A DNA stretch of 48,584 nucleotides from Verrucomicrobia bacterium SCGC AAA164-M04 (GTDB lineage Bacteria; Verrucomicrobiota; Verrucomicrobiae; Verrucomicrobiales; Akkermansiaceae). This document shows positions 4,695 to 5,880 of this stretch, one piece after another. A model generated the notes under the pieces. That model worked only from the letters and a program-made list of their open reading frames with translations, made no database searches and was not told the DNA's origin. Every line of letters starts with the position of its first letter. The first letter of the stretch is position 1. Position numbers and translations under genes: made by a program. The DNA lies in the NCBI GenBank assembly GCA_000383735.1, contig KB912179.1, positions 1-48,584 of the forward strand. Direction: 5' to 3'.

Positions 4695-4729
4695 AAAAAC
4701 CCGAGGCGTCTGAGACGACTCGGGTTTTT
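4695..4729. terminator. Bidirectional terminator hairpin
   Basis: A near-perfect inverted repeat: AAAAACCCGAG at 4695-4705 pairs with CTCGGGTTTTT at 4719-4729, with a partly paired centre. It has T tracts in both directions. It lies about 30 nt past the stop of the candidate selenoprotein gene on the minus strand and upstream of the peroxiredoxin gene, so it most likely ends the selenoprotein transcript. Confidence 0.85.
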
Positions 4730-4758: not shown

Positions 4759-5325
4759 TTAGAGAGGACTACTCGCTAACTTGGTCGCCTTCTTGATGAC
4801 GGACTTCCGTTTTTTGGTCATCTCACCAATTTTTTCCTCATCATAAGAATCGGCTGTCGCCATTAGGAGGGTGATAGAACCGGCGTTGACGAAGGCAGCA
4901 CTCACTTCATCCAATTTTTCGAGATCGGCACGCAATCTCTCATTGGTTTGCGCTCATGTGCCACCAGTAACGGCGATCGCGTAGGCTTCCTCTGGTGCTG
5001 CAATCTCTCTTTGCTTCACACGCTCGAGTTTGAGACCACCAGCTTTGAGTGCTTTCCCCACGCTGACGCGGGTAAACTTCACATCTTCGCTTTTGGTAGT
5101 CACGAAAGCAGTCATGCCAGACAGCATTACTTTCTCAACTCCTTCCATTTTGCCCAAGGCCGCACGGGCCTTTTTAGCAGCACCTCACCCACCACCACTG
5201 AAGGATACAGTGTACCCTTCGATAGTCGATGCAGCGACGTCTTCAGCATCAGCCGGGGCAGCAATGGCTACCGGGGCTATTGCTCCGAAGGCACAAATCA
5301 TGCCAAATCTAATTGTTGCGTTCAT
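4759..5325 (-). CDS. Candidate two-Sec selenoprotein: periplasmic tandem HMA-like protein
   Basis: Read from ATG at 5325 to TAA at 4759, the frame has 188 sense codons interrupted only by two TGA codons (codon 47 at 5185-5187, codon 124 at 4954-4956). A signal peptide covers residues 1-22. Two repeats follow with a beta-alpha-beta-beta-alpha-beta pattern like heavy-metal-associated (HMA/MerP) domains. Repeat 1 starts YTVSFSGGG-TGA-GAA and repeat 2 starts YAIAVTGGT-TGA-AQT. Each TGA sits where HMA domains have the first Cys of CxxC; the second Cys is Ala or Thr. Helix and strand patterns after each TGA are intact (for example ALGKMEGVEKVML). Each TGA has a downstream hairpin with loop CGUGC. 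Reading TGA as selenocysteine is inference: no sel genes are in the window. The alternative is a pseudogene with two nonsense codons. Role is probably metal binding or redox. Confidence 0.8.
4921..4939 (-). promoter_or_regulatory. Candidate bacterial SECIS for the second TGA
   Basis: Minus-strand RNA forms GAGAUUG-CGUGC-CGAUCUC, a 7-bp stem with one U-G pair and a 5-nt loop. It begins 14 nt after the TGA at 4954-4956. The loop has G at its second position followed by U, fitting the bacterial SECIS pattern in which loop G and U are recognised by SelB. Confidence 0.65.
5156..5172 (-). promoter_or_regulatory. Candidate bacterial SECIS for the first TGA
   Basis: Minus-strand RNA forms AAGGCC-CGUGC-GGCCUU, a perfect 6-bp stem with the same 5-nt loop as the second hairpin. 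It begins 12 nt after the TGA at 5185-5187, close to the roughly 11-nt spacing known for the minimal E. coli fdhF element. Confidence 0.7.
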
Positions 5326-5355
5326 AGCGATCAAATCTTAACGCACGAAAATGGC

Positions 5356-5389
5356 TCTGCAAGTGGTGTTTTTCAGTTTGTTGGAATAG
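5356..5389 (-). promoter_or_regulatory. Shared upstream element, selenoprotein copy
   Basis: On the minus strand: CTATT-N4-CAAACTGAAA-N3-ACCACTTGCAGA, matching the block upstream of azurin. It ends 30 nt before the ATG at 5325. TTGCAG followed 16 nt later by TAAGAT (5335-5340) is a possible sigma-70 promoter with a very short leader. Confidence 0.6.
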
Positions 5390-5406
5390 ATCAGTGGCTG
5401 GAATTG

Positions 5407-5447
5407 ACTACAAAAACGCCTCGGAGGAAAAATCCTGCGAGGCGATT
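5407..5447 (-). terminator. Rho-independent terminator of rpsU
   Basis: On the minus strand CGCCTCG (5438-5444) pairs with CGAGGCG (5417-5423), with an additional inner AGGA/TCCT pairing, followed by TTTTTG. It lies shortly after the rpsU stop codon. Confidence 0.8.
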
Positions 5448-5477
5448 ATTGGTTGAAGCTGATTTTTTCCAGAAGTC

Positions 5478-5735
5478 TTACTCAGCGTTGCGGGCAGCTT
5501 TAGCAGCTTCTGCGGTAGCGACTTGGGACTCACTTCGGAATCTCCACCGAACCTTGTTACGCTTAGGTGCAGTGCGGGCTTTGCGAATTGCGCGGTCGAT
5601 GGTGCTCTCATGGGAACGGCGGCGACGCATTTCCTCGAGAATTCCTTCTGTGTCGAGTTTGGTTTTCAAGCGCTTCAGTGCACGATCGACACTTTCTCCA
5701 CTTTTGACATCAACGCCACGAATATGTTTTTCCAT
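5478..5735 (-). CDS. rpsU: 30S ribosomal protein S21
   Basis: An 85-residue basic protein of the small ribosomal subunit, needed for efficient initiation. The N-terminal half has the S21 pattern of an ALKRLKTKLDTEGILEEMRRR-like helix (about residues 18-40), followed by Arg/Lys-rich sequence. A C-terminal Ala/Glu-rich extension (about residues 70-85) makes it longer than the ~70 residues of E. coli S21. It has its own terminator, so the downstream selenoprotein candidate probably uses a separate promoter. Confidence 0.93.
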   Translation of the reverse strand: MEKHIRGVDVKSGESVDRALKRLKTKLDTEGILEEMRRRRSHESTIDRAIRKARTAPKRNKVRWRFRSESQVATAEAAKAARNAE

Positions 5736-5880
5736 GATAAATAGCCCTCGGGGTTCGACGGGAGCGGGAAATTAGGGGGGAGGCAGGGAACCGTCAAGCC
5801 CCCATTTACGGGAAAAGTGGAGAATCTTAAACTCCTTGTTAGTTAGATTTTGTTAAGTTTCTTTGTTACAACTGCTAGAG

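Follow-up and report, generated by a model that had tools for sequence, protein, structure and literature searches.

Heavy-metal-associated (HMA) domains bind soft metals. Those of MerP, CopZ and CopA (PF00403) have a ferredoxin-like E-H-E-E-H-E fold and a CxxC motif with two cysteines per domain, and they contain no selenocysteine (Sec). Here, we describe a gene on contig KB912179.1 of Verrucomicrobia bacterium SCGC AAA164-M04 (assembly GCA_000383735.1; the stretch analyzed, positions 1 to 48,584, is referred to as the window) that is interrupted by two in-frame TGA codons and, to judge from its sequence and that of its relatives, very likely codes for a protein with Sec at both residue 47 and residue 124. 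This predicted double selenoprotein is modeled with the fold of the MerP, CopZ and CopA domains, whose first metal-binding Cys falls on its Sec columns. However, it is Cys-free, predicted to be exported or lipid-anchored, and not joined to an ATPase.

For comparison with described selenoproteins, we used a family set of 36 sequences, comprising the window, 11 close relatives (L001-L011) and 24 further members, with 27 of the 36 forming alignment A5. The NCBIfam model that most members match is NF041115, UxxU_metal_bind (26/27 at E ≤ 1, best 4.5e-9), which appears as a “putative mercuric reductase” with 2 Sec in Table 1 of a 2026 review (PMC13188914). It is also a small metal-binding domain with Sec in the motif, but it is a single 74-position UxxU model, whereas the protein described here has one Sec in each of two domains and no second motif ligand; the window protein scored 18.9 bits and the best of 14 scored members 36.3, against a cut-off of 95. 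NF045683 (MerT_CopZ_Se, a MerT/CopZ fusion-like heavy metal transport selenoprotein) is likewise HMA related and was weakly matched by 2/27 members (best E 0.06); by its name, however, it is a MerT-like transporter fusion, and L068 reached 11.5 bits against a cut-off of 375. The metal-binding double selenoprotein MbdU (NF045648) resembles ours in its two Sec and, by name, in metal binding, but it has a CU motif (Table 1 of the same review), and none of the window protein, L068, L080 and L084 matched it at E ≤ 1. Finally, the table of the Global Ocean Sampling survey (PMC2398784) includes a Sec-containing MerP, an HMA-family selenoprotein with no motif listed, which is similar by family assignment. 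None of the 14 members scored reached a cut-off in NCBIfam release 20, and in Table 1 of PMC13188914, as far as read, some entries are related to HMA and some are double selenoproteins, but none is a tandem-HMA protein. Nor was the family found in the published literature searched, including passages of PMC12013277 and PMC2398784, and term searches of PMC9312934 and PMC5029168 were empty. The family belongs to the HMA branch of bacterial selenoproteins and is unpublished within the literature searched.

A sequence-only reading of the window had located a 188-codon frame, open save for two TGAs that follow similar repeat contexts. Both statements are correct: the frame is on the minus strand, TGA47 and TGA124 are the only stops inside it, and the contexts are Y38-TVSFSGGG-U47 and Y115-AIAVTGGT-U124. 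The features of the gene are as follows.

4759..5325, minus strand: frame that codes for the double selenoprotein (188 codons, then TAA); its in-frame TGAs, codons 47 and 124, are both kept in 11/11 close relatives and 33/33 order-sample carriers
5325-5323, minus strand: ATG start codon
4761-4759, minus strand: TAA stop codon
5185..5187, minus strand: UGA codon 47, predicted Sec of HMA-like domain 1, where the HMA4 alignment row has the first Cys of its metal motif
4954..4956, minus strand: UGA codon 124, predicted Sec of HMA-like domain 2, aligned with the first Cys of the HMA domains in CopA and mercuric reductase
5155..5173, minus strand: predicted Sec insertion sequence (SECIS) hairpin 1, stem of 6-7 bp, loop CGUGC from nucleotide 19 after the UGA
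4911..4946, minus strand: predicted SECIS hairpin 2, lower stem of 5 bp and upper stem of 7 bp, loop CGUGC from nucleotide 22 after the UGA
5257..5325, minus strand: probable signal peptide, about residues 1-23, from a hydrophobic stretch with low model confidence
4999..5226, minus strand: HMA-like domain 1, residues 34-109, E-H-E-E-H-E in the structure model
4777..4989, minus strand: HMA-like domain 2, residues 113-183, E-H-E-E-H-E in the structure model, with HMA likeness also in the family-profile alignment

The two TGA codons are conserved wherever the gene was found. The 11 close relatives, all from Verrucomicrobiota and with identities of 62-88%, were located by scanning the DNA of GTDB species genomes; they have full-length frames and TGA at both columns. 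A profile search of an order sample (288 genomes from the order of G001, inferred to be Verrucomicrobiales) found 33 carriers with exactly two TGAs in each of the 33 hits, plus a second, partial one-TGA match in G196. Both TGAs are kept in all 38 carrier genomes found, although three of these (G016, G025 and G271) were entered by stop count with their sequences unread; loci L055-L060, which repeat L006, L005, L008, L001, L002 and L009, were dropped from the set of 36. The 36 members contain 72 TGA codons and no TAA or TAG in 6,875 codons. Among the 27 aligned members the lowest identity is 25%, and only eight columns are invariant (G44, G46, U47, S69, G70, G121, U124 and R132), while the distance from one U to the other is 76 or 77 residues across members. 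In the closest genomes, G272 and G282, the protein is 96% and 91% identical and the gene order is the same as in the window. No frame-disrupted ortholog was seen among the carriers, and no homolog read at the DNA level lacked TGA at either column. Median pairwise dN/dS (our own Nei-Gojobori script, 12 close sequences, 61/66 pairs usable per part) was 0.15 downstream of the first TGA and 0.12 downstream of the second, with a median dS of 1.2-1.3, close to saturation; these values show that purifying selection acts on the protein beyond each TGA.

Homologs with Cys at these columns, which had been expected, did not appear in any close form, and this makes the case stranger than first proposed. 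In a phylum sample, 4/387 genomes matched: three with two TGAs, already present in the order sample, and G061, with a stop-free frame of 830 amino acids that has CxxC in both HMA stretches and looks like an ATPase. A wider profile gave seven weaker hits in the order sample beyond the 33 (E 1e-8 to 8e-6), comprising one-TGA single-HMA frames in G005, G006, G009 and G258, the G061 frame, and stop-free partial matches in G069 and G094. The last two (G069:C3:30359-30646, E 8e-6; G094:C192:617-850, E 1e-6) cover mainly the second domain and are possibly Cys-type single-HMA relatives. Apart from the distant ATPase-like frame of G061, no two-domain form with Cys or Trp was found in the DNA of the phylum and order samples, and tblastn against viral contigs found no relative. 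The searches of protein databases gave no Cys form either, which is not proof, since two of the three scored only about 8,000 candidates, those with the most words in common, and proteins cut at the TGA fall under the length limit. Nearly all selenoproteins have commoner Cys homologs, according to PMC13188914.

Behind each TGA there is a hairpin at a fixed spacing, with compensatory changes in the stems among the 12 close members and among all 36. In the 12 close members, one pair of hairpin 1 is changed on both sides in five sequences and 95% of cells are paired; in hairpin 2, two pairs are changed on both sides and 100% of cells are paired. In paired cells and in covariation score alike, 1 shuffle in 500 did as well. 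Across the 36 members, 91% (site 1) and 95% (site 2) of upper-stem cells pair, whereas resampling synonymous codons gave 62% and 58%. At the loop codon, 35/36 members have N-G-U at site 1 and 33/36 at site 2; it is kept at site 1 although the residue may be Arg, Ser or Gly, which points to a constraint at the RNA level. Over codons 128-136 the mean synonymous difference is 0.08, compared with 0.45 beyond the hairpin regions (no value that low in 20,000 permutations, 12 members), and hairpin 2 folds with lower energy than its synonymous controls relative to other windows of the gene (z -1.54, P 2e-6). Both window hairpins agree with every rule for bacterial SECIS (bSECIS) elements quoted in PMC13188914 (loop of 3-9 nucleotides, stem of 4-16 bp, a G among the first two nucleotides of the loop, spacing of 16-37 nucleotides, minimum free energy [MFE] ≤ -7.5), and with the stem held at a fixed position 35/36 members pass them at each site.

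The machinery needed to read such signals was assessed in the genomes of the relatives, and the expectation of selA, selB and selC genes was borne out there. The genomes of L001-L011 code for SelB over the cut-off in 10/11 cases, SelA in 10/11 and SelD in 9/11, and nine of them have a tRNA-Sec with anticodon TCA (G003 and G007 gave weak hits that proved to be tRNA-Ser). Among 27 further carriers, 26 have SelB and 25 a tRNA-Sec over the cut-off, confirmed by ARAGORN in 24, so that at least two of SelA, SelB and tRNA-Sec are present in 38/38 carriers; all three are present in G272 and G282. SelA was detected in 92 of the 288 order-sample genomes (91 over the cut-off), that is, in 31/33 carriers versus 61/255 noncarriers (Fisher P 2e-15, uncorrected for kinship), and the two carriers without it have SelB and tRNA-Sec. 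Fragmentation, which affects many of these assemblies, can explain the single misses. In 9/9 cases where it was found (L046-L054), selD itself has an in-frame TGA, in the context C-x-G-U-A-S-K, followed by a hairpin; by that TGA, SelD of the carrier genomes is itself a predicted selenoprotein.

The HMA likeness claimed from the sequence alone is upheld by relatives, family profile and structure model, and only through these is it clear; from the window protein by itself it is weak. Against Pfam HMA (PF00403) this protein scored 16.3 bits (E 0.013), under the cut-off of 24.8 bits that 3 of 21 scored members pass (L063, 29.5; L068, 25.8; L072, 32.5). The family profile, however, matched the CopA tandem HMA domains in the PDB with an E value of 2e-8 and aligned the Sec column to the leading Cys of CxxC, as had been proposed for both TGAs. 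The AlphaFold model has two E-H-E-E-H-E domains (mean predicted local distance difference test [pLDDT] 84; past residue 40 every ten-residue block is at 88 or above except for 81 around U124), and that of a distant member has the same secondary-structure elements. The modeled fold is ferredoxin-like, with the metal loop before helix 1, U47 at the N terminus of a helix and U124 immediately ahead of a helix. Foldseek ranked the tandem HMA domains of CopA and ATP7B at the top, and VIA-align matched single domains with Z up to 10.5 over 72 residues. In short, models and profiles agree on two HMA-like domains, in each of which a UGA takes the predicted place of the first metal-binding Cys.

The second Cys of the motif is absent from every member read: no Cys lies within four residues after either U in 36/36. 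The mature part, beyond the signal or lipobox-like stretch, is entirely free of Cys in 34/36 (the exceptions are L076, with C76, and L083, with C140). The protein is likely exported, given its probable signal peptide and the lipoprotein-like start of two relatives, L080 and L084, whose N termini we take to be lipoboxes.

We assign a probability of about 0.6 to the whole reading, predicted from sequence, of SECIS-driven Sec insertion at both UGAs in an exported two-HMA protein that binds soft metal without Cys. SelB would read both UGAs as Sec by means of the hairpin behind each, giving an exported HMA-like protein with one Sec per domain and no cysteine, in which U47 and U124 would replace the first Cys of CxxC. 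Because the second Cys is missing, and one ligand per domain needs both domains, the simplest working metal site would be a two-coordinate Se-metal-Se clamp formed by the two domains jointly, which would mirror within one molecule the metal bridge that joins two HMA domains, with Cu(I) or Hg(II) as its likeliest ions. A soft-metal site is favored since HMA metal sites have this fold and this position of the ligand, and by this analogy metal binding would be, by a narrow preference, the main role. More tentatively, and with somewhat less than even confidence, we propose that the Cys-free tandem protein with its two Sec forms such a clamp or else a diselenide, is obligate in having no Cys counterpart, and is part of a wider set of exported metal chaperones that rely on selenium in Verrucomicrobiales.

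A number of observations weigh against this reading. Metal binding is predicted from the modeled fold and the residue position, with no CxxC present; the model is least sure in the two Sec blocks (88 and 81), and as a whole it superposes poorly on tandem HMA structures (TM 0.31-0.32), so that single domains are what matched. The NF041115, MerP and CopZ models all score far under their cut-offs, and no metal gene recurs as a neighbor outside the closest relatives (26-29 loci). As for the RNA, the 12 close members have no more covarying pairs (386 of 500 at site 1, 42 of 500 at site 2) or pair types (500 and 471 of 500, respectively) than the shuffles, and in hairpin 1 neither the synonymous drop (P 0.056) nor the stability against synonymous controls relative to other gene windows (mean z -0.55, P 0.14) is significant. 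The strict bSECIS test on the MFE fold is passed by 33/36 members at site 1 and 28/36 at site 2, while 251 of the 1,954 TGAs in the window pass it by chance, and no Rfam SECIS family matched. In addition, Trp stands at both columns in 12 homologs from the databases.

The main rival, which we consider unlikely though well ahead of the others, is a redox protein in which a diselenide alternates with two selenolates for peroxide or thiol-disulfide chemistry outside the cytoplasm, the HMA fold being a mere scaffold. Two Sec in a mature part that is devoid of Cys in nearly all members suit an Se-Se pair, and so does the modeled placement of both residues at or just ahead of a helix. Section 7 of PMC13188914 rates most uncharacterized selenoproteins as likely redox proteins. 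A peroxiredoxin-family gene is a neighbor in the window and in 5/29 loci, but these are the closest relatives only, and no thioredoxin-like fold was among the top matches listed in the structure searches. Both Sec, moreover, lie at the metal-site Cys of a domain type that binds soft metals. The gene neighborhood decides nothing between the two roles.

Selenium itself could be the point of the gene: if the UGAs acted as selenium-dependent stops, low selenium would yield a product of 46 residues and the gene would be mainly a selenium sensor or sink. With two UGAs, the first of them early, full-length synthesis would depend on selenium twice, and the want of a close Cys version fits as well; this is nevertheless improbable, as purifying selection past each UGA and the confident models of both domains indicate that the full product matters.

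It is more improbable still that UGA means tryptophan here, owing to local recoding or a suppressor tRNA-Trp. Three protein database queries returned 12 entries with Trp at both TGA columns (P0002-P0005, the first four, from the initial protein search, and P0007-P0014), and the family has hardly any other Trp, with 2 TGG in 6,875 codons. However, both columns are TGA and never TGG in 36/36 DNA copies. Table 4 translation prints Trp for TGA, and P0005 differs from the TGA-bearing L010 at just two other residues; since the DNA of the relatives has TGA at both columns, we infer that the database Trp is such a translation, apparently from gene calls on short contigs. The hairpins and the Sec machinery suit Sec, Trp does not fit a metal-ligand position, and UGA is a stop elsewhere in the window. 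The same searches returned P0006, a protein of 136 amino acids that joins a signal peptide like that of the double selenoprotein to a ribosomal L7/L12 domain (PF00542) and may be a chimera of the assembly.

A pseudogene or assembly error with two nonsense mutations, as two in-frame stops might suggest, is ruled out for practical purposes by the relatives, which share both TGAs in 38/38 carrier genomes with dN/dS of about 0.15; the sequence-only reading had rightly called two random mutations improbable. It was also right that TGA is an ordinary stop nearby: of 34 open reading frames (ORFs) selected in the window, 33 are complete and 6 of these end in TGA, and the 34 contain 250 TGG codons, which together exclude general reassignment of TGA in the window.

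Current annotation misses this family: gene callers that take TGA as a stop would fragment it, database copies print Trp, and there is neither an NCBIfam model nor a row in Table 1. Other selenoproteins may also sit unseen in databases as Trp-containing proteins. With no close Cys form found, the family offers a clean case for asking what selenium does that sulfur cannot, and if two selenolates do hold one metal, it would be a natural bis-selenolate metal site made from two HMA domains.

The gene lies between an S21 ribosomal protein gene, upstream, and the peroxiredoxin-family gene. An antisense ORF (4948-5775, plus strand) that overlaps the S21 gene was not counted as a gene. Terminator-like stems are present on both flanks.

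5412..5444, minus strand: terminator-like stem-loop with a T run behind the upstream S21 gene, seen by eye and absent from the list of the terminator scan
4695..4729, no strand: palindromic stem resembling a terminator, flanked on each side by T runs and lying about 30 bases past the stop codon of the selenoprotein gene; its plus-strand version is in the terminator scan

Given these stems, the gene is probably a separate transcript with its own start of transcription. The S21 gene (window 5478-5735) is found just upstream in 14/29 loci, including L001-L011 and L088-L090, and a gene with a Spermine_synth domain lies downstream in 9/26. An azurin gene (2322-2813, TIGR02695 over the cut-off) is 2 kb downstream in the window, and azurin is near the selenoprotein gene in 5/29 loci, a possible copper link confined to the closest relatives. 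In L097, a 33% azurin match is 7 kb away.

Genomes of the order sampled also contain proteins with a single HMA domain and one in-frame TGA at the first metal Cys (L148-L166, 19 stretches in 14/22 genomes). All 19 have a Cys four residues past the U (U-x-x-x-C, e.g., L151, L153 and L157), most have a GTGCA...TGCAC hairpin behind the TGA, and five (L152, L154, L156, L162 and L165) have a lipoprotein-like form. They are apparently further, unlisted HMA selenoproteins, as predicted from their sequences, which would make this order a lineage with several such proteins. One of them, L153, is on contig C175 of G011, some 4 kb away from selD.
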